Source: Myxococcales bacterium (GTDB lineage: Bacteria > Myxococcota_A > Polyangia > Polyangiales > Polyangiaceae). Taken from it: a stretch of DNA of 64,000 nucleotides. This document shows, in pieces, positions 19,111-35,097 of the stretch. The stretch lies in the NCBI GenBank assembly GCA_004193285.1, contig SECP01000027.1, positions 1 through 64,000 of the forward strand. Reading direction: 5' to 3'. Every line of letters starts with the position of its first letter. The first letter of the stretch is position 1. The notes below the pieces were generated by a model that saw only the letters and a list, made by a program, of their open reading frames with translations, ran no database searches and had not been told where the DNA came from. Both the position numbers and the translations under genes were made by a program.

Positions 19111-19215
19111 GAATTCGGTCACAGCTGGGCCGTTCTGCCCCGGCGGCAAAGAGCGCGCGAAAAGCCCGCAAATGTTTCCGTCTGGGGTGGCGCGCTTCGC
19201 GCTATGTTCCGCGCC

Positions 19216-19599
19216 ATGAGCAGCGAGAGCTTACACGAGCCGATTGAGCTCCTGTCGGAAGACACGAAGAATCAACATCGCGCGATCGTTTCGCTGATGG
19301 AAGAGCTAGAGGCGGTCGACTGGTACCAGCAGCGCGCCGAGGCCTGCACGGACCCGGAGCTGAAGGCCGTGCTCATTCACAATAAAAACGAAGAGGTCGA
19401 GCACGCCATGATGACGCTCGAGTGGCTGCGTCGAAAGGTCCCCGTGTTCGCAGAGAACATCGGCACCTACGTCGGCTCCACCGGGCCCATCGTCAGTGTG
19501 GAGCAGGGCGCGACGGGTCATGGTAGCGCTGGCGGCGGCGCCGAAGCTCCCTCCAGCTCGGTCTCGCTCGGCATTGGTAGCTTGAAAGGAATGAAGTAA
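19216..19599 (+). CDS. Encapsulated ferritin-like protein (EncFtn cargo)
   Basis: 127 aa. Two-helix ferritin half-module that oxidises and stores iron inside an encapsulin shell. HEPIELLSEDTKNQHRAIVSLMEELEAVDWY and the motif NEEVEHAMMTLEWLRR match Rhodospirillum-type EncFtn. By alignment the ferroxidase residues are Glu30, Glu60 and His63, with Tyr37 nearby. A flexible Gly/Ser linker ends in the encapsulin targeting peptide SVSLGIGSLKG. A second ATG lies at 19204; the inner one gives the family's usual N-terminus. Its stop overlaps the encapsulin start (TAATG). Confidence 0.93.
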   Translation: MSSESLHEPIELLSEDTKNQHRAIVSLMEELEAVDWYQQRAEACTDPELKAVLIHNKNEEVEHAMMTLEWLRRKVPVFAENIGTYVGSTGPIVSVEQGATGHGSAGGGAEAPSSSVSLGIGSLKGMK

Positions 19600-20411
19600 T
19601 GGATCTCCTCAAACGCGAGCTTGCGCCGATCACCAGCGAAGCCTGGGAACAGATCGACGACGAGGCACGCCGCGTGCTCAAGCTGCACCTAGCCGGGCGC
19701 AAGCTGGTGGACTTTTCGGGGCCGCACGGCTGGCAGCTCGGCGCGGTGAACACGGGCCGGCTCAAGCACATCGAGGCGACGGCGCCGGACACGGTGGCGC
19801 ACGCGATCCGAGACGTGCGGCCCCTCGTGGAGCTGCGCAGCAACTTCAAGATCGAGACCTTGGAGCTGGACTACGCGGCGCGCGGCGCGGACGACCTGGA
19901 TTTGGATCCGGTCATCGCCGCTGCCGAGCGCATCGCGCGCGCGGAGGACTCGGCCATCTTCCGCGGTCTGGCCGCCGGCGGTATCCAAGGCATCATCGAG
20001 GCAAGCCCCCATGCCCCGGTGGACGTGAAGACGCCGAGTGATTGGCCCCGCGCAGTCAGCCGCGCGAAGGAGGCCCTGCGCCTCTCCGGGGTCAACGGCC
20101 CCTACGCGCTCGCGGCTGGCCCCAACGCGTACGCCGAGCTCACCTCCGAGGGTGACGACGGCTACCCCTTGCGAAAGCGCTTGGAGGAGAGCATCGCCGA
20201 GGGCTCCCTGGTGTGGGCTCCCGCGCTGGAGGAAGGCGCCGTGCTGCTCTCGACGCGCGGAGGTGACTACGAGCTCACGGTCGGGCAGGACCTCTCCGTT
20301 GGCTATGTCACGCACGGCACGGACGACGTGGAGCTCTTCATCACGGAGTCTTTCACGTTCCGGGTGCTGGAGAACAAAGCCGCGGTGCTCTTGCGTCGCG
20401 TCCCGGCGTAA
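19599..20411 (+). CDS. Encapsulin shell protein, family 1
   Basis: 270 aa, the usual length. HK97 phage-capsid fold that self-assembles into a protein nanocompartment. Typical sequence: MDLLKRELAPITSEAWEQID at the start, SGPHGWQLGAVNTGR, the E-loop region VRPLVELRSNFKIETLELD, and C-terminal LSVGYVTHGTDDVELFITESFTFRV. The ATG shares its first base with the end of the ferritin-like gene, so shell and cargo are translationally coupled. Role: iron storage and protection from oxidative iron chemistry. Confidence 0.95.
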   Translation: MDLLKRELAPITSEAWEQIDDEARRVLKLHLAGRKLVDFSGPHGWQLGAVNTGRLKHIEATAPDTVAHAIRDVRPLVELRSNFKIETLELDYAARGADDLDLDPVIAAAERIARAEDSAIFRGLAAGGIQGIIEASPHAPVDVKTPSDWPRAVSRAKEALRLSGVNGPYALAAGPNAYAELTSEGDDGYPLRKRLEESIAEGSLVWAPALEEGAVLLSTRGGDYELTVGQDLSVGYVTHGTDDVELFITESFTFRVLENKAAVLLRRVPA

Positions 20412-20503: not shown

Positions 20504-21880
20504 TCATTCTTCTTCGGGCCCCGGCGGCGGGGTCGTGCCGTCCAAATGGCGGTAGAGGGTCTTCCGCCCAATGCCGAGAACGCGTGCGGCCTTGCTCTTG
20601 TTGCCCGCGCACGCCTTGATGACCCGCGCGATGTAGCGACGCTCGACCTCTTCGAGAGGCAAGAGCTCGCTCGGGTCGTCCCCGGCGATGAGCACGTGAC
20701 CCGGCTGGAAATCCCGCACCTTTCGCGGCAGATCTTGAAGATCTACGACCTCCGCATGGCTGAGTGTCACCGCTCGCTCGACGCAGTTTCGGAGCTCCCT
20801 CACGTTGCCCGGCCAGTCGTAGGCGGCGAGCTTTTCGGCCGCGGCCGCGCTGAACTTGGCGATAGGCTTACCGCTCCGCACCGCCAGCTCCCCCAAGAAG
20901 GCCTGCGCCAGCAAGAGTACGTCGCCGCTTCTCGAGCGGAGCGGCGGCAGCTCCACGTGGATGACGTTGACTCGATAGAACAAGTCTTCGCGGAACCGGC
21001 CCTGCTCGACGGCGGCTTCGAGGTCGCGATTGGTCGCGGCGATGACTCGCACGTCGAACGGAACCTCGTGGTTGGAGCCGAGCGCCCGCACCGTTCGCTC
21101 TTCTAGCGCGCGCAGGAGCTTGCCCTGCAGGGCGAGGGGCATGTCGCCGATCTCGTCCAGCAAGAGGGTACCGCCCTGGGCGGACACGAGCAGGCCATCC
21201 CGCCGCGTGCGAGCGTCCGTGAAGGCGCCGCGCTCGTACCCGAACAGCTCGCTCTCCAGGAGCGTCTCCGGCATGGCCGCGCAGCTCACGGCCACGAACG
21301 GGCGGTCTTTGCGCGAGCCGCGCGCGTGGATCTCGCGCGCCACGAGCTCCTTTCCCGTGCCCGACTCACCCGTGATGAGCACGGTCGAATCGCCGGTCTG
21401 CAGGTGCTCGATCGTCGCGTAGAGCCGGCGCATCGGCTCGCTGCTGCCGATGAGCGACCCGTAGCGCTGAGACGTGTCTACCACGCGCCGTAGCGCGTCC
21501 ACCTCCGCGCGTAGCTCGTGATTTTCCACCGCGCGCTTCATCACCAGACCGATCGTGTCGATGTCGAACGGCTTGGTCACGAAGTCGTAAGCGCCGGCGC
21601 GCATGGCCGCGACCGCCGAGTCGATGCTGCCGAAAGCGGTCACCACCACCACCGGGAGGTGCGGCTTCATCTGCTTGACGCGGCTACACAGCTCGCTGCC
21701 GCTGACGCCCGGCATGTTCAAGTCCGTGACCACGACGTCGAACGGCTCTGTCTCGAGGCGCGAGAGCGCGGCCACCGGGCTCGTCTCCCACGCGGCCTCG
21801 AACCCGGAGTCACGGAGCGCGTCCGCGAACATTTCACATTCAGCGCGTTCGTCGTCGACGATCAATGCTCGAGGTTTCAA
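20504..21880 (-). CDS. NtrC-family sigma-54 response regulator
   Basis: 458 aa. Receiver domain 1-120 with phospho-acceptor Asp53 (VTDLNMPG) and Lys103. AAA+ domain about 140-375: Walker A GESGTGKE at 171-178, Walker B LLLDEIGDMP. C-terminal Fis-type helix-turn-helix GNKSKAARVLGIGRKTLYRHL. The sigma-54 contact loop reads GAFTDA (218-223) instead of GAFTGA. The start must be TTG 21880, which overlaps the kinase stop by four bases (TTGA) and puts the receiver domain at the N-terminus. Operates with the kinase at 21877. Confidence 0.93.
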   Translation of the reverse strand: MKPRALIVDDERAECEMFADALRDSGFEAAWETSPVAALSRLETEPFDVVVTDLNMPGVSGSELCSRVKQMKPHLPVVVVTAFGSIDSAVAAMRAGAYDFVTKPFDIDTIGLVMKRAVENHELRAEVDALRRVVDTSQRYGSLIGSSEPMRRLYATIEHLQTGDSTVLITGESGTGKELVAREIHARGSRKDRPFVAVSCAAMPETLLESELFGYERGAFTDARTRRDGLLVSAQGGTLLLDEIGDMPLALQGKLLRALEERTVRALGSNHEVPFDVRVIAATNRDLEAAVEQGRFREDLFYRVNVIHVELPPLRSRSGDVLLLAQAFLGELAVRSGKPIAKFSAAAAEKLAAYDWPGNVRELRNCVERAVTLSHAEVVDLQDLPRKVRDFQPGHVLIAGDDPSELLPLEEVERRYIARVIKACAGNKSKAARVLGIGRKTLYRHLDGTTPPPGPEEE

Positions 21881-23340
21881 GTGGCCACCGCCGGCAGGAA
21901 CACGGAGAAGGTGCTGCCCATTCCCCGCTGGCTGGTCACGGAAATACTGCCGCCGTTCTCCACGATGATACCGTGAGCGACGCTCAGACCCAGGCCGGTG
22001 CCCTGACCTACGTCTTTGGTGGTGAAAAAGGGCTCGAAGATGCGCGCTTTGGTTGCTTCGTCCATGCCGTGTCCGTCGTCGGTCACCCGCAGGTAGGCGC
22101 GTCGGCCTACGGACGGGGGGTCGTTCCGGTCGCCGCCAAAAGCAGGTTCCGTGCCACAGGTAATGCGCACCTTGCCTCCCGGGCTGCAAGCATGGATGCC
22201 GTTGACGACCAGGTTCGACAGCACCTGCTCGAGCTGAACCGGATCCCCGAGCGCCATGGCGCTTCCACCCTCGGCCGCTATCTCGACCTGGACCTCGTGC
22301 TTGCGCGCGATGGGCTCCACCAATCGGGCGATGACGCGCGCGATGTGGCGCAGGTCCGTGGGCGCCGGGCGAGGCTCTCGCCGACCCGCAAAATCGAGCA
22401 GCTGTCGGATGATGACGGTCATGCGCTCGGCTTGCTCTGCCACCGCAGCCAAGTACTCTGCGCCCACCTCGGCCTCCACCGTGCCGCGTCGAAGCATCTT
22501 CACCCGCCCCGCGATGACGTTGAGCGGCGTCCCGAGCTCGTGGGCGATGCCGGCCGCGAGCCGCCCGACCGTGATCAACCGGTCGGCGTGACGCAGCTGC
22601 TCGATGGCGTCGATGCGCGCGGTGGTCTCGGCCTGGGTCCTCGCGTTCGCCTCCGCGAGGCGCTCACACATGGCGTTCACCTCGCTCGCCAGCTCCGAAA
22701 TCTCGTCGCGCTGGGTGAAAGAAAGCGCGCCGGTCAAGTCGCCTTGGCCGATGCGCTGAGCCTTTGCGGCCAGCAAATTGAGAGGCCTGCCTACGAGCCA
22801 CACCCCCATGACGAGCACCACCATGCCGGAGAACCCGACCATCGCCAGGGTCGCGGCGAGCGTGCCGACGAGGTTCGAGCGGACGAACTCGTCGCGGATG
22901 CCGAGTCGCTCGCAAATCTCCACCGCGCCCAGGAGCTCACCCTTGTCGCCGTGCACCGGCACTCGAGAGACCAGAAACTCTTCGTTCGGCTCGCTCGGAT
23001 CCGCCATCACGAAATTCTCGAGGTGATTGACGACGCTGCGCTGCGGCACACGCCCCGGTGCAACTTCGTTTTGGCGCCCGCTCGGGTGCACGAATCCGAC
23101 GCGCATGTGCTGTCGCTCCTCGTCCGCTTGCCGCACGAGCTGCATCGCGCGCGCCTGCCCGGCGACGACCCACTCGTCCGCGACGCACACCGCGAGCGTC
23201 GTGCCAACGAGCAGGTGATCGCGGCGCATGTCCAAATCGAAAAGCTCGATCTCTTTTCGAGCGCGAACCCAGCCGAAGATGATCAGCACGGCCAGCGTTC
23301 CGAGCACCGTGGCCAGCACCAACTTGAGGGCGACTCTCAT
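21877..23340 (-). CDS. Membrane sensor histidine kinase
   Basis: 487 aa. Transmembrane helix 5-24, a periplasmic sensor region of about 130 residues, a second helix at 157-180, HAMP domain (185-240), HisKA with the phospho-His in AHELGTPLN (His267) and an HATPase_c domain with NLVVNGIHA (N box), DDGHGMD and GTGLGLSVAHG. The HELGTPLN form is typical of NtrB-like kinases that pair with sigma-54 regulators, as here. The stimulus is unknown; the periplasmic part has no family I recognise. First gene of the pair. Confidence 0.93.
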   Translation of the reverse strand: MRVALKLVLATVLGTLAVLIIFGWVRARKEIELFDLDMRRDHLLVGTTLAVCVADEWVVAGQARAMQLVRQADEERQHMRVGFVHPSGRQNEVAPGRVPQRSVVNHLENFVMADPSEPNEEFLVSRVPVHGDKGELLGAVEICERLGIRDEFVRSNLVGTLAATLAMVGFSGMVVLVMGVWLVGRPLNLLAAKAQRIGQGDLTGALSFTQRDEISELASEVNAMCERLAEANARTQAETTARIDAIEQLRHADRLITVGRLAAGIAHELGTPLNVIAGRVKMLRRGTVEAEVGAEYLAAVAEQAERMTVIIRQLLDFAGRREPRPAPTDLRHIARVIARLVEPIARKHEVQVEIAAEGGSAMALGDPVQLEQVLSNLVVNGIHACSPGGKVRITCGTEPAFGGDRNDPPSVGRRAYLRVTDDGHGMDEATKARIFEPFFTTKDVGQGTGLGLSVAHGIIVENGGSISVTSQRGMGSTFSVFLPAVAT

Positions 23341-24115: not shown

Positions 24116-25555
24116 ATGCAGTTGCCTCGTGTCTGCCCGATGACTCCCGCATGCAGTTTCAGTGACAGATTCCGGGGATTGTCCTCCCCCACCCACCTCG
24201 GATTGCTGCTCGCGCTACTGCTCGGCTCGCAAACCGCGCACGCGCAGGTGCCGGCCGCTCCTGCCGAAACGGCGCCGCCCGGCGGCTCCTACGCCTCGCC
24301 GCCGGCTGCCCCGGAGCCCGCGGTCGAGCCCGCGGCGGACGAGCCTGCCCCAGCGCCCGCGGACGACGCAGGCGGCGTGGACGAGACAGGCGGCGGCAAA
24401 AAGAAGAAACGCAAGCACCGCAAGCCGACCGATGACGACGCAGATCCCGCGCCCGCGTCGGCGCTGCCGAAGGCGGAGAAGGTCGACAAGAAGCGCGACA
24501 AGGCGGGCAAGCACGACTTTCGTCTCAAGGGTCGCGTGCTCGCGCTCGCCGAGCTGTCGCATCGGCGCGAGCGGGTCGTCACCGTGGAGAGCGGCATCGT
24601 CGATCGTAACCGCGACGCGCTCGATCTCGAGCTTCAGAGCGCGCGCATCGGCGTCGACTACCGCTCCCCACTCCCGTGGCTCTCGGCGGAGGTAGAAATC
24701 GAGGTCGCCGGCAAAGTGGAAGCGAAGGACGCCTTCGTGAAGGCGGGCCAGCTGTTCTTCGTGAAGGCGGGGCGATTCAAGGTGCCGGCTCCTTCGCTCG
24801 AGCTCGCGTCGCCGTGGACCATCCCGCAGGTGCGGCGCGGCCTCGTGCACAACCTGCTCGTAGACTGGATGGACGTCGGGGGGCGCGCGCCGGGCGTGGC
24901 CTTCGGCTACCACCAAAAATCCGGCCTGCGTCCGCGGCTCACGCTGGGCGTGTTCCAAGGCTCCACGCTGGATACGGTGGTGCCCGGCGATCGCGACGTG
25001 CGGCTCATCGACCACGCGTCGCTCCACGCCCAAACGTACGCCGCGCGCGCCGAGATTTCACCGTTCGGAGTGGCGCTGGGCGTTTGGTACCAGCAGCGCG
25101 TGAACTCCATCGTCGTCAATCGCATCGAGCACTACGCCACGTTCGGTTTGGACGCGACCATCGACCGGAGCTTCGAGCACGGCGGGGTACGCGCATGGGT
25201 AGACGGCGGCGCCGGGCAGAGCCCGTACTTGCACGCCGACAAGCCCGGCAACGGCGACGCGGCGTGGTTCGCGTTCGGCCGCGCGCAGGTCGCCTACCGC
25301 TTCGGCGGCGTCGCGCAGGGCGATCCGTACCTGGAGCCCTTCGGTTTTTTCGCGGTCATGGATCCGGACACCGAGGTCGTTTCGGACCGGGTGACCGAGG
25401 CGGCCCTGGGCGTGAGCGTCGGCTTTTGGGACCGTGCGCGCCTCACCCTGCAAGGGGAGACGACGGCGGGGCAGCGCAACCTCCCCGCCGGCTTCCTCGG
25501 CGGGCAAACGCCGGATCACCAGAGCCTGCTGCTCCAGGCAGGAGCGCGCTTCTGA
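24116..25555 (+). CDS. OprP/OprO-like outer-membrane porin
   Basis: 479 aa. Signal peptide ending AHA-Q, then a Pro/Ala/Glu-rich stretch and a Lys-rich patch (GGGKKKKRKHRK), then a beta-barrel from about residue 130 to the C-terminal aromatic (ARF). Segments such as RIGVDYRSPLPWLSAEVEIEVAGK and VKAGRFKVPAPSLELASPWTIPQVRRGLVHN resemble phosphate-selective porins O/P. Alternating strands and a terminal Phe support an outer-membrane barrel. A second in-frame ATG at 24140 gives a tidier signal peptide. First gene of a five-gene unit; its stop overlaps the next start (TGATG). Confidence 0.85.
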   Translation: MQLPRVCPMTPACSFSDRFRGLSSPTHLGLLLALLLGSQTAHAQVPAAPAETAPPGGSYASPPAAPEPAVEPAADEPAPAPADDAGGVDETGGGKKKKRKHRKPTDDDADPAPASALPKAEKVDKKRDKAGKHDFRLKGRVLALAELSHRRERVVTVESGIVDRNRDALDLELQSARIGVDYRSPLPWLSAEVEIEVAGKVEAKDAFVKAGQLFFVKAGRFKVPAPSLELASPWTIPQVRRGLVHNLLVDWMDVGGRAPGVAFGYHQKSGLRPRLTLGVFQGSTLDTVVPGDRDVRLIDHASLHAQTYAARAEISPFGVALGVWYQQRVNSIVVNRIEHYATFGLDATIDRSFEHGGVRAWVDGGAGQSPYLHADKPGNGDAAWFAFGRAQVAYRFGGVAQGDPYLEPFGFFAVMDPDTEVVSDRVTEAALGVSVGFWDRARLTLQGETTAGQRNLPAGFLGGQTPDHQSLLLQAGARF

Positions 25556-27261
25556 TGTTCGTCGTCTTCGAAGGTATCGACGGCAGTGGGAAGACCACCA
25601 TCTCCAACCGGGTCGCGGCCGCGCTCACGGCCGAGGGGCTCTCGGTCAAGCACCTGCGCGCCGAGGGCAAGTTCGTGTCCCCGGTGTCGGAGGGAATCCG
25701 CGAGTTCGGGCGCAATTCCCAGAATTGGGACCTCTCCTGGCAGGCGGAGTTCTTGCTGTACGTAGCGCGCGACGTGCAGCTGATTCACGAAGCCTTGCGG
25801 CCGGCGCTCGCGGATCACGACCTGGTGCTGGCGGACCGCTTCCTCTACACGCCCGAGGTACTCGGCCGTCATGGCCGCCGCCTGCCAGAGAGCTTCACGC
25901 GGCCCATCCTCAGCGCGGCCGCCGACGGCCTGGAGCCAGACCTGGTGATCTTGGTGGACGTGGATCCCACGTTCGCGCGCGCTCGCCGTAAGTTGCGCAA
26001 GCTCTCCGAGCAACAAGCCAAGCCACCGTCGCGAAAAGGGCTCTCGGGCGTCGGCTTGCAGCAGCGACTGCGGCGCGGCTACCTGGAGATGGCGAGTGAG
26101 CACCCGGAGCGCTGGGTGGTGCTCGAGAACGAGGACGCGCTGGAGCGCAGCGTGGAGCGCGCGGTGGGCCTGATTCGCGCGGCGCACCGCGAAGGCGCGT
26201 CGCGCGCCATCGCGCGATTTCGCGCAGAGACGAAGCTCGCCCGGAGCACGACCCCGGTCTCCACCACGAAAGAGGCGCTCTCCGCCTTCTTGAAGGTGGT
26301 GGACGACGTGAGCGACCGCGAGCCGCGCGTGGCCGCCTACTTGCTGGGCGGTATGTTCGGGCCGCAGGTGGACGAGCGCCGCCAAGCGCTCTACGAGCGC
26401 GCGCCGGACGCCGTCCTGGCTGCCTCGCGTGACTTGCCGGACCCGGCGAGCTTCGAGCTCAGGCGCCGGGCTCGGCGCGAGCACCCGGGCCTTTCGCTGC
26501 GCTCACTCGGCCTCGCGCTGCGCAGCCCGGGGGGCTGGGAGCTGTGGGAAGAGCTGGCGGAGCTGGCTCCCGCCGACGCGCTGCTTTGCCTGACCGCGGT
26601 GGACGACGAGCGCGCTTGGCGCGCGCGAGAGCGCTTCTACGAAGCGAGCCCCGCCCTCGCAGAGCTGGCGATCGCGAGCCTGGTCGGAATCGGCTCCGCG
26701 CGCGCGGAGCAGTTGAGGAGCCGCCTCTTCGAAGAGCGCGGCCGTGAGCTGAGCCTCGGTTACGACGTCTCGCGCGCACTGGCCCGCTCCGTAACCGGTC
26801 TGGGCGACGAAGCGGCGTGGCGCTTTCGGCGCGCCGCCCGGCCCGCGGCGCCGGTGGCCGCGCTGGCTTCGCTCGTCGGCGTGAGCGACACGGAGAGCTG
26901 GAGCTGGCGCACGGAGGCGCTGCGTCGAGCGCCCAAGGTCGTGATGGCGACGCTGCGCGAGCGCACCGAGGAGGCGGCCTGGCGCCTGAGGCAGAGCGTC
27001 GTCGCGGACTGCAAAGAGGCGCTGGACGGCTTGCAAGGCGTGGACAGCGAGCCCGCGTGGGCCTTGCGAGAGGCGAGCCAAGACGTCTGGCCCTCCACGG
27101 TCGTGAAGACGCTCGGAAGGCTCGCGGACGGCCCGCGCGGCGACGCGCTCCTCGAGCGGCAACTGCAAAAATATCCCGACAACGTTTCGCTCCTCAAGCA
27201 CGTGTCGAGCATCGCGCTCGGCCTGCATCGCCTCGACCTCAACCCCGACGAATCAAGCTAA
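25555..27261 (+). CDS. Thymidylate-kinase-like P-loop kinase fused to W-x-x-R repeats
   Basis: 568 aa, against about 210 for ordinary dTMP kinase. Residues 1-210 are a dTMP-kinase-like domain: P-loop GIDGSGKTT at 7-15, the DRF motif (LADRFLYTPEV) and a basic lid RKGLSGVGLQQRLRRG. Residues about 260-560 are some ten helical repeats of 26-30 residues (one longer) with the pattern aW.lRe.a....P..v..sL.gv.d, best seen in AAWRFRRAA, ESWSWRTEA, AAWRLRQSV and PAWALREAS. They should form an alpha-solenoid. Because it sits in a phosphate operon, the kinase may not serve DNA precursor synthesis; its substrate is open. Start overlaps the porin stop by one base. Confidence 0.85.
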   Translation: MFVVFEGIDGSGKTTISNRVAAALTAEGLSVKHLRAEGKFVSPVSEGIREFGRNSQNWDLSWQAEFLLYVARDVQLIHEALRPALADHDLVLADRFLYTPEVLGRHGRRLPESFTRPILSAAADGLEPDLVILVDVDPTFARARRKLRKLSEQQAKPPSRKGLSGVGLQQRLRRGYLEMASEHPERWVVLENEDALERSVERAVGLIRAAHREGASRAIARFRAETKLARSTTPVSTTKEALSAFLKVVDDVSDREPRVAAYLLGGMFGPQVDERRQALYERAPDAVLAASRDLPDPASFELRRRARREHPGLSLRSLGLALRSPGGWELWEELAELAPADALLCLTAVDDERAWRARERFYEASPALAELAIASLVGIGSARAEQLRSRLFEERGRELSLGYDVSRALARSVTGLGDEAAWRFRRAARPAAPVAALASLVGVSDTESWSWRTEALRRAPKVVMATLRERTEEAAWRLRQSVVADCKEALDGLQGVDSEPAWALREASQDVWPSTVVKTLGRLADGPRGDALLERQLQKYPDNVSLLKHVSSIALGLHRLDLNPDESS

Positions 27262-27277
27262 ACTCAGAGACTTGCCG

Positions 27278-28021
27278 ATGAAGCTTCGCTCACTCTTGCC
27301 CCTAGTCATGCTCACGCTGGTCGGTTGCGGTACCGTGGATCCTTCGAAGCCTGACCCCCAGGGCGCAGGGGGCGAAGGAGCGGGCGGCTCCGGAGGCGAG
27401 ACGCCGGGGCCAGACGGGCCCCTCTTGCCATGGGCGCAAGGCAACGAGTGGACCTATCGCATCACCAAAGACGGCTTGACCAGCGTCAAGACCACGACCA
27501 TCGGCGAGCTGGAAGCGGTCGGTGGCAAGGGTCCGAACGCGGAGCTCATGGCCTACCACGTGGTCACCGCCAAAGGCGCGGAGCTCGCGGATCGCACCGA
27601 GAGCTGGCAAGCGCAGGATCCAGACAACGAGGACCGCATCATCCGCTACCGCGAGCAATCCTTCGACGCGACGAGCGGCGACCTCGAGCTGGAGGAGTAC
27701 TGGGACCCGGCAAAGCTCCACATCGACGGCAGCGCCGAGCGCACCGTCAAAGAGGCGAGCTGGCTCGAAACGTACCAGGAGCACAAGCTCGAGGTCGGCC
27801 TCTCGCCCACCGAGCACGAAGTGCGAGAGCGGTGGACGGTGCTGGACGACGACGCCACCGTGACGGTGCCGGCCGGCACCTTCGAGCACGTGATCCACTT
27901 TCAAAAAATCGGCGGGAGCAGCACCAAGGAATATTGGTACCTGCGCGGAGTCGGCAAGCTGAAGGAGACGGGGTCGCAGACCGAAGAGCTCACGGAGTAC
28001 TCGGTCGAGGAAGCGCCGTGA
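27278..28021 (+). CDS. Lipoprotein of the phosphate/polyphosphate operon
   Basis: 247 aa from ATG 27278; a TTG two codons earlier is less likely. Lipobox LTLVGC, a short Gly-rich linker, then one domain of about 200 residues starting LPWAQGNEWTYRITKDG and containing TVTVPAGTFEHVIHFQKI and YWYLRGVGKLKETG. These last segments are typical of periplasmic beta-sandwich lipoproteins that report on total surface or cell-wall state; no enzymatic motif is visible. Its stop overlaps the VTC gene start (GTGA), so it belongs to the unit. Confidence 0.88.
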   Translation: MKLRSLLPLVMLTLVGCGTVDPSKPDPQGAGGEGAGGSGGETPGPDGPLLPWAQGNEWTYRITKDGLTSVKTTTIGELEAVGGKGPNAELMAYHVVTAKGAELADRTESWQAQDPDNEDRIIRYREQSFDATSGDLELEEYWDPAKLHIDGSAERTVKEASWLETYQEHKLEVGLSPTEHEVRERWTVLDDDATVTVPAGTFEHVIHFQKIGGSSTKEYWYLRGVGKLKETGSQTEELTEYSVEEAP

Positions 28022-28872
28022 GCGTCCCCTCGCCCGCCCTGGATCGCGCGCGCGCGGCGCTGGCCGACGCGGCGATCACGGCGGAGCGAGAGGAGACCAA
28101 GTACCTGGTAGAAAAGCGGGATTTGCCGGGCCTGCTGCGGCAGATTGCGGCCGAGCTCGAGCCTCATCGCTTCACCGGTGAAGCCGCGAACCGGCTGCCG
28201 GGCGCCGAGCACTTCGTCACCACCATTTATTTCGATACGCCCGGGCTCCGCTACTACCGGGCGTCGCAGCAGAACCAGCACCACAACCTCAAGATCCGCG
28301 CCAAGGAGTACTACGACCTGCACCCATCGCTGGCGGAGCTGGCGACCGATCCCGAGCAGATCCTGCGCTACCAGCCGTGGCTCTGGTTCGAGCTGAAGCG
28401 CCGCGAGGGCTCGGTCACCAGCAAGCGCCGCTTCCGGTTCCCCAAGGCCGCCGCCGCCACCCTCTTCGAGCAGCGCGGGTTCGCCTGCGAGCTTCCGTCA
28501 CAAACCGCGGAAGAGCGCGCGGACGCAGAGGCGCTGGTGGAGCACGTGCGGGCTCAGGACGAGCCGGTCGTGCCGAGCGCGGTCGTCAACTACCGGCGCT
28601 TGTCGTTCCAGAACGCGGACGGCACGCTGCGGGTCACGGTGGATCTCGCGCTGTCGTACTTTGCGGTTCCGGCGGACCTGTTTCGCCGCGCTCGCCCCCT
28701 CTCGCGGAGCGAGCTCGGCAAGCCGCTCGGGGTCGAGCCACGTGCGGTGGTGGAGGTGAAGCGCCGTACCGACCTGCCCACTTGGCTCGGCAGCGCCCTG
28801 AACGCCGCCGCCGGCCCGCCCGTCACCTACAGCAAGTTCGTGGCTGCGAGCGGAGCTCTGCATGGCGGCTGA
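28018..28872 (+). CDS. VTC-domain protein, probable polyphosphate polymerase
   Basis: 284 aa. The VTC domain is a triphosphate-tunnel fold that in yeast Vtc4 polymerises the gamma-phosphate of ATP into polyphosphate. Tunnel residues are visible in order: EREETKYLV, TTIYFDTPGLRYYR, NLKIRAKEYYD, WFELKRREG, VVNYRRLSF, RVTVDLALSYF and VVEVKRR near the end. No transmembrane helix or SPX domain, so it is probably cytoplasmic or held by a partner. Start GTG 28018 overlaps the lipoprotein stop. Ends 11 bases into the transporter gene. Confidence 0.9.
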   Translation: MSVPSPALDRARAALADAAITAEREETKYLVEKRDLPGLLRQIAAELEPHRFTGEAANRLPGAEHFVTTIYFDTPGLRYYRASQQNQHHNLKIRAKEYYDLHPSLAELATDPEQILRYQPWLWFELKRREGSVTSKRRFRFPKAAAATLFEQRGFACELPSQTAEERADAEALVEHVRAQDEPVVPSAVVNYRRLSFQNADGTLRVTVDLALSYFAVPADLFRRARPLSRSELGKPLGVEPRAVVEVKRRTDLPTWLGSALNAAAGPPVTYSKFVAASGALHGG

Positions 28873-30952
28873 GCCGACGAGCGCGCGCGGCAGCCGCTCG
28901 GGGAAGCTGCGGCTCCTGCTCGCGTGGCTGCTCACCGCCCTGATGGTCGGCGTCTATTTCAGCCTGCCGGACGGCGAAGACGCGCCGAGCCTGCAGACCG
29001 AAGGAGCGGCGCAGGAGCCAGACCCATCGCGCATCGAGGTCCTCGCGGTCACACCGGAAGCGGCCACGCCCGGCAGCGCCATCACGGTGCAGTTCGCGGG
29101 CGCGGCGCACGCCCGCGCCGTGACCGCCTCCGTCGGCAAGACGGAGCTGGAGGTGCTCTCGCGGTTGGACGACGCGCTCGTGGTGCGCCTCCCCCAAACC
29201 TTGGCCCCCGGTCACGTCAAGCTGCGCGTCGCGGACGGCCAAGAGCGCAGCAAGCCATATTACCTACGGGTAAAGCTCGAGAACTGGCGCAAGCCGTTCC
29301 GAAGCTTGGTCGGCGGCTTCGCTCTGCTCATCTTCGGGATCGGCGTGCTCGGTCGCGGCGCGCGGGAGGCGGTGGGGCTGCGCAGCACCCACGCGCTGGC
29401 GCGCTGGGCTCAGCGTGGTCCGGCCGCGCTCGGCATGGGCATCGGCCTCGGCGCGCTTTCGCAGTCCACCACCGCGGCCGCGAGCGTGCTCTCCGGCCTC
29501 GTGAGCGGCGGCCTTTTAGCGCTAGGCCCAGCCGCGGCGGCGTTCCTGGGCGCACAGCTCGGCACCGCGAGCGCGCCGCTGGTGAGCGGCCTCTTCGACC
29601 CACGCGAAGGCTTGCTGCTCGTGGCGCTCGGCGTGATGTGGCTCGCCTTCACCACCACCCGGCGGGGCACCGCGCTCGCTCGGCTCACGCTCGGCGTGGG
29701 TCTCATCGCCTTCGGTTTGCAGACGCTCCGTCCCGGTTTCGAGCCGTTCGTGCACGATTCCGCGCTGCTCTCGCTGGTGCTGGAGCTGCGCGCCGCGAGC
29801 GTGCTCGGCGTCGCCACTTGCGCCCTGCTCGGCGCGGCGCTCGTCGCGATCTTCCAAGGCCCGGCGCCGGTGTGCGTGCTGGTTCTCGTGCTCGCCCAAA
29901 CCACCGCGCAGTGGGACCTGCGCACCGCGCTCTCCGTGCTCGCAGGCTCGGGCCTGGGCGCGGCGGTTGGCGCCTCCATGGCCGGTCTCTCCAGCAAGCG
30001 CTCACGCAAGCTCGTGCTGCTCAACTTGATGCTCGGCCTCGCCAGCACGCTGCTCGCCGCCTCGCTGGTAGACGTGGTCGCACACGTCGCGGATCTGCTC
30101 GTGCCCGGCGTGCCTCACGAGGTGCGCTGGGGTAAGCGCGTGCTCCTACCCCACCTCGGCTTGCACCTCGGCGTGGCTTTCGCGCTCTCTCAGCTGAGCG
30201 CCGCGCTGGTGCTGCTCCCGGCCAGCTTTCCGCTCGCGCGCCTGGTCGAGCGCTGGTTTCCGCAAGACGCGAAGACGTCGCTACCGAACGTGGGCGACGC
30301 GCTGCGCGTCACTCGGGTCCGCCTGCTGGAAGTGTGCGAAGCGCAGCTCGCCGCGCTCACGCCGCTGCGCGAGCTCGTCCTCGCCGGCGATCGCGACGCC
30401 GGGGAGCGAGTGGAGCACGCGCTCGGCAGCGCTCAGGCGCTGCTGGACGAGCTCATCGCGGGGCCCATGTTGGCGCTCGGCGACGCGCCGAATAGCCAAG
30501 CGCTACGCGGCGCCGCGCTCACGAGCGTGCAGCTGCAGCGCAGCCTGGAGGGGCTCGAGCGGCAGGCGGCGCGCTTCGTGGACGCACGCGTCGCCCTCTC
30601 CACGGACGCGCGCCACGCGGAGCTCGCCCCCGGAGACCTGAGCGCGCTCGAGCAAATGCACGACCTCTTGGCCAGCGCCGGCGCCGCCGTTCGTGACGCC
30701 TTGCGCGATCGCGCTACGGTGGATCTGGACTCGGCGCGGGCCAGCGAGATCGCGATGAACGCGCTCGAGGCCCGGTTGCGCAAGGGCGTGCTCGAGGGCG
30801 ACGCTCAAACCGTGCGCAGCCACTTGCTCGTGCTGAAGCTCGCCGACGCCTACGAGGCCACCGGCAACCAAGTCTATCGCCTCAGCGAGGCTCTCGCGGA
30901 GGGGGCTGCCGACCCGCAGCACGAATTGCAGAAGCTCACGGGGCGTCCCTAG
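28862..30952 (+). CDS. Na/Pi-cotransporter-like protein with TIG and PhoU-like domains
   Basis: 696 aa. A transmembrane helix (18-36) leads into a periplasmic IPT/TIG Ig-like domain (about 38-117: VTPEAATPGSAITVQF). The PNaS transporter region (about 140-460) has the first motif pair GALSQSTTAAASVL and GAQLGTASAP. In the second half the expected QSS has become FQGPAP and the GT motif GSGLGAA, so one substrate half-site is degenerate. The C-terminal 210 residues are helical like PhoU. It may import phosphate for polymer synthesis or have turned into a sensor. Overlaps the VTC gene by 11 bases. Confidence 0.88.
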   Translation: MAAEPTSARGSRSGKLRLLLAWLLTALMVGVYFSLPDGEDAPSLQTEGAAQEPDPSRIEVLAVTPEAATPGSAITVQFAGAAHARAVTASVGKTELEVLSRLDDALVVRLPQTLAPGHVKLRVADGQERSKPYYLRVKLENWRKPFRSLVGGFALLIFGIGVLGRGAREAVGLRSTHALARWAQRGPAALGMGIGLGALSQSTTAAASVLSGLVSGGLLALGPAAAAFLGAQLGTASAPLVSGLFDPREGLLLVALGVMWLAFTTTRRGTALARLTLGVGLIAFGLQTLRPGFEPFVHDSALLSLVLELRAASVLGVATCALLGAALVAIFQGPAPVCVLVLVLAQTTAQWDLRTALSVLAGSGLGAAVGASMAGLSSKRSRKLVLLNLMLGLASTLLAASLVDVVAHVADLLVPGVPHEVRWGKRVLLPHLGLHLGVAFALSQLSAALVLLPASFPLARLVERWFPQDAKTSLPNVGDALRVTRVRLLEVCEAQLAALTPLRELVLAGDRDAGERVEHALGSAQALLDELIAGPMLALGDAPNSQALRGAALTSVQLQRSLEGLERQAARFVDARVALSTDARHAELAPGDLSALEQMHDLLASAGAAVRDALRDRATVDLDSARASEIAMNALEARLRKGVLEGDAQTVRSHLLVLKLADAYEATGNQVYRLSEALAEGAADPQHELQKLTGRP

Positions 30953-33822: not shown

Positions 33823-35097
33823 ATGCTCGCCCGCCACGTTCGTCCCCTGCTCTCCCTGCTCGCCGCCATCGGCGCGAGCACGCTGATTTCGGCGTGTGAT
33901 ACCGGCGGAGAGACGCCCCTCGGACCCGGCGGCAACGCGTCGACGGGAGGAAGCGCGAGCGCGGCCGGAACCAGCAGCGGCGCCAGCACGGGTGGAAGCG
34001 GTGGAGCGGCGACCGCAGGAGCGGGGTCGAGCGGCGCCGCGGGCAGCAGCGCCGGCGCCGCCGCCACGGACTCGCTCGCGGCCAAGTACGCAGGCATCTT
34101 CCCGATCGGAGCGGCGGTGAGCGATTTTCACCTCACCGCGCTGGAAGACGTCCTGATTCGGGACTTCAACCACCTCACTTGTGAAAACGCGATGAAGATC
34201 GCGGACATTCACCCGAGCGAAGACACGTACGATTGGGCGAGCGCGGACCGCATTGCGGACTTCGCGCGCTCGCACGGCATGAAGCTCACCGGGCACACGC
34301 TGCTGTGGCACCGGCAGACGCCGGCGTGGATGTTCGCAGGCGTAACCGCCGGCGACGCAGCGAGCCTGGAGCTGCTCAAGAGCCGGCTGAAGTTGCACAT
34401 CGAGACGGTCGTGGGCCGCTATGCGGACGTCGTCGACAATTGGGACGTCGTGAACGAAGCCATCAGCGACACCGCCGACAAGCAGTACCGGGACGGCCCC
34501 GAGGGCTCGAAGTGGTTCGAGGTCTTCGGTAGCGAGGAGTACATCTACTGGGCCTACCAATTCGCCAAGGACGCGCTCGAAGCCAAGGAGCCGGGCAGCT
34601 CTGCGGGCAAGCTCTATTACAACGAGTACGTAGCGACGGTGAAAGCAGACAAGATCTTGAAGCTGCTGGCGTGGCTGAAGGACGACAAGGGCATCACGCT
34701 CGACGGCGTTGGGTTCCAAAGCCACGAGAACATGACCTGGCCCACCGTGACCGATCTCCAGACCGCGATCGATAAGGTCAAGGCCGCCGGCTACAAGGTG
34801 AAGATCAGCGAGCTGGATGTGACCGTGTACAGCGACTATGCGACCGGCCCCTTCGTGCCTCAACCGGCCGTCACCTACACGCCGGAGCTCGCGGCGCGTC
34901 AGGCCCAGCGCTTCGCGGATCTGTTCACCCTGTACCGAAAGAACAAGGACGTCGTCACGAGCGTCACGTTCTGGGGAGTGTCGGACGATCAAACGTGGCT
35001 CGACAACGAGCCGGTGCCGAGTCGGGACGACTTTCCACTGCTCTACGACGATCTGCACCAGCCGAAGCCCGCGCGCGCGGCGATCATGAATTTCTGA
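33823..35097 (+). CDS. GH10 endo-xylanase lipoprotein
   Basis: 424 aa. Lipobox LISAC (Cys25), a Ser/Gly/Ala linker to about residue 85, then a complete GH10 barrel. The acid/base Glu212 is in WDVVNEAI and the nucleophile Glu330 in KISELDV. Other family marks are FNHLTCENAMKI, GHTLLWHRQTPAW and TFWGVSDDQTWL. It should cut beta-1,4-xylan at the cell surface. No other glycan-degrading gene is nearby, so it is an isolated gene. Confidence 0.95.
   Translation: MLARHVRPLLSLLAAIGASTLISACDTGGETPLGPGGNASTGGSASAAGTSSGASTGGSGGAATAGAGSSGAAGSSAGAAATDSLAAKYAGIFPIGAAVSDFHLTALEDVLIRDFNHLTCENAMKIADIHPSEDTYDWASADRIADFARSHGMKLTGHTLLWHRQTPAWMFAGVTAGDAASLELLKSRLKLHIETVVGRYADVVDNWDVVNEAISDTADKQYRDGPEGSKWFEVFGSEEYIYWAYQFAKDALEAKEPGSSAGKLYYNEYVATVKADKILKLLAWLKDDKGITLDGVGFQSHENMTWPTVTDLQTAIDKVKAAGYKVKISELDVTVYSDYATGPFVPQPAVTYTPELAARQAQRFADLFTLYRKNKDVVTSVTFWGVSDDQTWLDNEPVPSRDDFPLLYDDLHQPKPARAAIMNF

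Follow-up and report, generated by a model that had tools for sequence, protein, structure and literature searches.

The locus considered here is a run of five genes on the forward strand of a 64,000-nucleotide stretch of a Myxococcales bacterium genome (assembly GCA_004193285.1, contig SECP01000027.1, positions 1 to 64,000; hereafter the window). It raises the question of whether these genes form a phosphate-to-polyphosphate system built around a VTC-domain protein. Recent papers regard PPK1 and PPK2 as the source of bacterial polyphosphate, and VTC as eukaryotic (PMC13318637, PMC12526157). The initial annotation had read a porin, a P-loop kinase with repeats, a lipoprotein, a VTC-domain protein and a Na+/phosphate transporter as one unit. 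The five open reading frames, all on the + strand, span 24140-30952 with intergenic spacings of -1, +16, -4 and -11 bases in gene order, as that annotation had described; the VTC gene starts with a GTG codon at 28018. Judged from the comparison of related genomes, this gene set is a real conserved operon that is vertically inherited, whereas the polymerase activity, the direction of transport and the regulation of this operon are predicted.

Using a threshold of E below 1e-50, VTC orthologues were found in 11 of 146 relatives, window genome included. A scan of the GTDB contig collection, not exhaustive since it used two short patterns, gave 18 loci titled Myxococcota or unplaced delta/Proteobacteria metagenome-assembled genomes (MAGs), one of them from the cultured species Paraliomyxa miuraensis, and a search of the phylum added two further genomes (G448 and G458; G and L numbers designate genomes and loci). 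Among the 20 Myxococcota genomes with an operon-type VTC (the window, L024, L033-L037, L040-L050, L096 and L097), all five genes are clustered in 10, and VTC is adjoined by the kinase in 17 and by the transporter in 17. Reading the five genes as one unit, for which neighbourhood in related genomes had been set beforehand as the test, is borne out by these counts. Several families of the phylum share this gene content and order, with sequence identities of roughly 25-86%. The order nevertheless varies: (i) the kinase comes last in L041, L044, L049 and L050, (ii) the transporter is inverted in L047, (iii) the kinase lies on another contig than VTC in G002, G122 and G448, and (iv) the transporter is found at another place in G002 and G150. 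The full-length kinase is present in exactly the same 11 of the 146 relatives as VTC (11/11 compared to 0/135; Fisher p = 9e-17, kinship ignored). Furthermore, VTC, kinase, transporter and lipoprotein diverge in step, with correlations between their pairwise distances of r 0.67-0.93, a level reached in none of 2000 permutations. This correlated divergence, together with the conservation in 20 genomes, rules out a chance neighbourhood.

The central enzyme matches the VTC domain (PF09359, E=1.1e-26), as do all 11 orthologues, and the VTC profile retrieves Vtc4 structures (E 3.5e-12) far better than those of Vtc2 (0.0019), which is catalytically inactive (PMC12526157). Residues K28, R94, K127, K136 and Y192 of the window protein align with K200, R264, K281, K294 and Y359 of yeast Vtc4, and R194, E246, K248 and K273 with R361, E426, K428 and K458; all are invariant across the 11 orthologues. 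The position of Vtc4 R266 is occupied by K96 in the window protein and by K or R among the orthologues. Catalysis is impaired in the Vtc4 R264A/R266A/E426N enzyme (PMC9911596). In phosphatases of the triphosphate tunnel metalloenzyme (TTM) family, a second metal is bound by three Glu (E2, E4 and E171 of AtTTM3; PMC4641920); the corresponding positions of the window protein, mapped through Vtc4 K200 and E426, are R24, E26 and K248, two of them basic and E26 acidic. This protein looks like a polymerase, and probably is one, because the catalytic residues of Vtc4 are kept and two of the three ligands of the phosphatase metal site are basic; the VTC-domain identity proposed initially holds, and the active site is of the polymerase type by these residues. 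Neither an SPX match (Pfam) nor a transmembrane segment (hydropathy) was detected in the window protein, which is therefore of a bacterial type and not a eukaryotic-type subunit.

PPK1 is missing in 5 of the 11 operon genomes (G016, G052, G097, G119 and G122) compared to 11 of the 135 others (Fisher p=0.0026 by genome and also 0.0026 by genus, in a test that uses draft genomes and ignores kinship), as well as in two of seven further operon genomes, one of which is a small MAG. PPK2 had no match in G016, G052 and G097, and G119 and G122 were not among the matches. In several lineages, no polyphosphate synthase gene was thus found besides that of the operon, which would there substitute for PPK1. 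Paraliomyxa miuraensis carries PPK1 in addition to the operon.

The last gene encodes a membrane protein matching PF02690 Na_Pi_cotrans (E=6.2e-17), a core present in 15/15 members, and a profile built from 15 orthologues retrieves SLC34A2 structures at 2e-8. Pfam gave no TIG and no PhoU match in the window protein. Its AlphaFold2 model (pLDDT 80.6, pTM 0.59) comprises an N-terminal helix, a seven-strand domain, the membrane core and a helical tail; in Foldseek searches, the seven-strand domain resembles IPT/TIG and the tail PhoU structures, with weak E-values (0.002-0.1) and, for the PhoU matches, TM-scores of 0.61-0.78 on target. The TIG-transporter-PhoU fusion described initially therefore stands as a PNaS core identified by Pfam with TIG- and PhoU-like parts seen in the model.

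The kinase matches PF02223 Thymidylate_kin (E=7.5e-20) and scores 92.9 bits with TIGR00041 (cut-off 83.25). Its AlphaFold2 model (pLDDT 91.5) shows a thymidylate kinase (TMK) domain (residues 1-205) and a C-terminal alpha-solenoid, so that the P-loop kinase with repeats was correctly recognized, and its best Foldseek matches are thymidylate kinases (TM-score 0.77-0.89 on target). Since Pfam and Foldseek both give TMK, a PPK2 is ruled out. Thymidylate kinases bind the phosphate by an Arg and the base by a Gln of conserved motifs. The operon kinases carry a DRFLYTPEVLG-type sequence in which the phosphate-binding Arg is kept and the base-binding Gln (SSxAYQ motif) is lost, while DRYxxSSxxYQ is intact in eight canonical Tmk sequences of the same group (8 of 14 loci, those read in the correct frame). 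Of 15 genomes checked, 14 encode a separate normal Tmk, and the exception (G005) is 88% complete. The lost base-binding motif and this separate Tmk rule out a housekeeping dTMP kinase. The TMK fold phosphorylates monophosphates and the base-binding motif is lost, so the role first proposed, handling nucleoside diphosphates or supplying nucleoside triphosphates, is unsupported; a nucleoside monophosphate (NMP) other than dTMP is a first guess for the substrate. Most solenoid repeats have one near-invariant Arg (276, 303, 358, 388, 425, 479, 505 and 528), and only one acidic residue is invariant. The net charge of the solenoid is about neutral (48 K+R compared to 51 D+E), which leaves a basic polyphosphate-binding surface unsupported, and the regularly spaced Arg may have a structural role like those of HEAT repeats. 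It should also be mentioned that the P-loop Lys, which the operon kinases retain, is replaced by Ser or Thr (EGIDGxG[ST]TT) in the canonical Tmk at L052, L053, L055-L057 and L062-L064, and that a kinase copy in FL481 (L048:7562-9184) has a degenerate P-loop (GIEGSRKHA) and no DR motif, and therefore may be inactive.

The porin probably starts at 24140 rather than at 24116 as first annotated, because the ATG at 24140 (MTPACSF...) is kept in the nearest relative (porin 76% identical) and the ATG at 24116 is not. A signal peptide is present, and the N-terminal linker is long and rich in Pro, Ala and Lys. The window porin alone has no Pfam match and falls below the PF07396 threshold; PF07396 Porin_O_P is matched by five of nine aligned members (best E 2.6e-9), so the Porin_O_P family is indicated through the orthologues. 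The lipobox LVGC confirms the lipoprotein predicted at 27278, and five of its orthologues match DUF3108_like.

A CotH-polyphosphate polymerase (VTC)-DUF4956 cluster has been described beside pel genes (PMC7112168). DUF4956 and VTC were matched in the same three control genomes, and no DUF4956 (PF16316) match was found in the window genome. In G046, the genes run CotH-like, porin, kinase, DUF4956, lipoprotein and VTC; DUF4956 has been gained there and the transporter lost, no orthologue of the latter being found genome-wide. G448 carries porin-kinase-lipoprotein beside DUF4956 and CotH, and lipoprotein-VTC-transporter at another place. In G146, two extra VTC copies adjoin CotH and group with the operon copy of the same genome. 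More distant VTC genes (L029, L030, L100 and L101) form part of clusters that include DUF4956, HlyD and, in most cases, a TolC-like gene, an arrangement reminiscent of export. Gene content across relatives suggests that VTC needs a membrane partner, for which PNaS-PhoU and DUF4956 would be alternatives. Besides, both VTC clades have as a neighbour a lipoprotein that ends in a PPDK_N ATP-grasp domain, preceded by an SH motif similar to a phosphohistidine site (Table 1); a secreted dikinase-like protein of this kind would be unusual.

The explanation that we favour is a vertically inherited phosphate/polyphosphate operon, which has about an even chance of being right. The Porin_O_P protein, to judge from its family, would let phosphate anions through the outer membrane. 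The PNaS-type protein would move phosphate over the inner membrane, with gating by its PhoU-like tail; its domains come from the model and the direction is predicted. The soluble cytosolic VTC protein would build polyphosphate from ATP next to this transporter, which would be its membrane partner in place of DUF4956, as gene content indicates for the replacement and as we infer for the physical partnership. The TMK-like kinase might phosphorylate an NMP other than dTMP, refilling pools drained by the polymerase, or might use the polymer, which is the weakest step, and the lipoprotein would be an envelope accessory. Phosphate handling is the likely theme of the operon; the complete chain from uptake to polymer, as first drawn, is somewhat doubtful.

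Several observations weigh against this explanation. E26 of the VTC protein corresponds to the second Glu of the phosphatase motif ExExK, a position occupied by Thr (T198) in Vtc4, and is the main sequence reason for doubting a polymerase. With two PPK1 and four PPK2 matches in the window genome (contamination estimate 7.8%), VTC is there an addition and not a replacement, and the PPK1 association itself carries the limits of draft genomes and kinship given above. No Pho-box-like site above background was found upstream of the operon, which leaves the low-phosphate induction proposed initially devoid of sequence support, and no sigma-70-like promoter was found there. Porin-kinase sets occur without operon-type VTC in G412 and G191, although both hold a distant VTC. 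In SLC34 proteins, QSSS is found in both inverted repeats; in the operon transporters, repeat 1 carries QSTT or a similar motif and repeat 2 carries QGP, the latter in 15/15 members. Because the second QSSS is lost, NptA/SLC34-like cotransport should not be assumed, and the Na+/phosphate uptake of the initial annotation is only a candidate role. Furthermore, phosphate export has been described for the PNaS protein YjbB (PMC11389368), whose overproduction lowers polyphosphate according to the title of reference 43 of that paper.

Export by YjbB is also one of the grounds for an envelope-directed polyphosphate, in which VTC makes the polymer, PNaS-PhoU (or DUF4956) moves the chain or phosphate outward, porin and lipoprotein act outside, and the product serves the envelope and associated kinases, CotH and the PPDK_N lipoprotein among them. 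It would account for DUF4956 taking the place of the transporter in G046, for CotH genes next to operon-type VTC or its partners, for the PPDK_N lipoprotein beside both VTC clades and for DUF4956 with HlyD and TolC at distant VTC loci, and yeast VTC couples synthesis to membrane translocation (PMC9911596). However, passage of a polymer is not known for a PNaS fold, the operon is devoid of HlyD and TolC, and the window locus has no CotH, PPDK_N or DUF4956; we consider this alternative unlikely. Were VTC instead a tripolyphosphatase or another TTM enzyme that trims short polyphosphates imported by the porin, the operon would scavenge phosphate. OprO-type porins do take up pyrophosphate, and E26 fits the TTM phosphatase motif (PMC4641920), but R24 and K248 replace two of the three Glu of the second metal site, K273, the counterpart of catalytic Vtc4 K458, is invariant, and the profile prefers Vtc4 to the inactive Vtc2 (PMC12526157), making such a trimming enzyme quite improbable. 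The porin-kinase sets of G412 and G191, which include a PPDK_N lipoprotein, and the splitting of the genes over two separate places in G448 and G002 could also suggest two co-travelling sets, porin-kinase-lipoprotein for an unrelated envelope or nucleotide task and VTC-PNaS for phosphate storage. This has little probability, since G448 and G002 still keep both halves, kinase and VTC co-occur exactly among the 146 relatives, and a distant VTC is still present in G412 and G191.

Returning to the favoured phosphate/polyphosphate operon, if its VTC is the sole polyphosphate synthase gene in some myxobacteria lacking PPK1 and PPK2, it would represent an alternative route to polyphosphate in bacteria and a simplified counterpart of the yeast machinery, and the operon may be a second bacterial way to store or handle phosphate. 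As a speculation to which we give a low probability, a PPK-independent system could consist of a soluble VTC polymerase acting on a membrane protein, PNaS-PhoU in this operon and DUF4956 in other systems, by which phosphate or polymer is brought outward, with polyphosphate supplying the envelope and extracytoplasmic phosphotransferases (CotH, PPDK_N lipoprotein). The operon also gives a testable role to the recurring VTC-DUF4956-CotH association and to the thymidylate-kinase offshoot.

Table 1. Genes of the operon, other features of the window and PPDK_N lipoprotein genes beside VTC.
Feature	Position	Strand	Basis
Outer-membrane beta-barrel porin, Porin_O_P kind	24140..25555	+	start conservation; PF07396 in orthologues
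Thymidylate-kinase-fold P-loop kinase with C-terminal alpha-solenoid	25555..27261	+	Pfam, TIGRFAM, AlphaFold2 model, Foldseek
Lipoprotein, DUF3108-like by orthologues	27278..28021	+	lipobox LVGC
VTC-domain protein of the triphosphate tunnel kind, lacking SPX and transmembrane parts	28018..28872	+	PF09359; polymerase-type active site
Membrane protein: transmembrane helix, periplasmic TIG/IPT-like domain, PNaS core, PhoU-like cytoplasmic tail	28862..30952	+	PF02690; model
EncFtn-like cargo gene, then encapsulin shell gene (known iron-storage kind)	19204-20411		PF22277 E=4e-38; PF04454 E=2e-88
NtrC-type response regulator and histidine kinase, upstream	20504-23340	opposite to the operon	
GH10 glycosyl hydrolase lipoprotein, likely xylanase	33823-35097		
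PPDK_N lipoprotein beside VTC	L034:1817-3976		
PPDK_N lipoprotein beside VTC	L035:3955-6069		
PPDK_N lipoprotein beside VTC	L037:1036-3207		
PPDK_N lipoprotein beside VTC	L042:4353-6713		
PPDK_N lipoprotein beside VTC	L105:4357-6312		
PPDK_N lipoprotein beside VTC	L106:3953-6448		
PPDK_N lipoprotein beside VTC	L030:9153-11240		
PPDK_N lipoprotein beside VTC	L100:8982-10439		

Both flanks of the operon are transcribed in the opposite direction, with a Dabb-domain gene and the two-component pair upstream and a LysR regulator downstream; among the loci examined, the position of this pair is kept only in the closest relative. In other genomes, ArsD adjoins the operon in both L049 and L050 (one by Pfam, one by similarity), ArsA is found in L050, and L049 has genes for an SBF-family transporter and a PHO4 phosphate transporter. 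A link to arsenic genes, seen in this one family pair only, was set aside.

Compared to known systems, the operon shares with PPK1 and PPK2 its proposed product, polyphosphate, but its enzyme is an unrelated VTC, and PPK1 is missing in almost half of the operon genomes among the relatives (5/11). With yeast Vtc4 of the eukaryotic VTC complex, it has in common the TTM tunnel family, PF09359 and the equivalents of the invariant residues aligned above; it differs by the lack of SPX and of its own transmembrane domain, by E26 for T198 and K/R96 for R266, and by a predicted membrane partner that is a separate PNaS-PhoU protein. The operon kinase has the fold and P-loop of bacterial Tmk and a score above the TIGR00041 cut-off, but has lost the SSxAYQ base motif, has gained a solenoid domain and coexists with a normal Tmk elsewhere in the genome. 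The transporter shares the PF02690 core and a C-terminal PhoU-like domain with NptA of S. aureus and YjbB of E. coli; its periplasmic TIG-like domain, its invariant QGP in place of the second QSSS and its link to VTC set it apart. Literature searches found no described operon with the five-gene set, in agreement with the initial annotation, except that the CotH-VTC-DUF4956 cluster had been described (PMC7112168) and overlaps with it in some relatives. Shared features are a VTC-domain protein of probable polymerase type and a membrane protein. In G046 and G448, operon-type genes are adjoined by CotH and/or DUF4956, and in G146 CotH lies next to the extra VTC copies. By contrast, the window genome has no DUF4956 and its operon no CotH, and porin, TMK-like kinase, lipoprotein and PNaS-PhoU are found instead.

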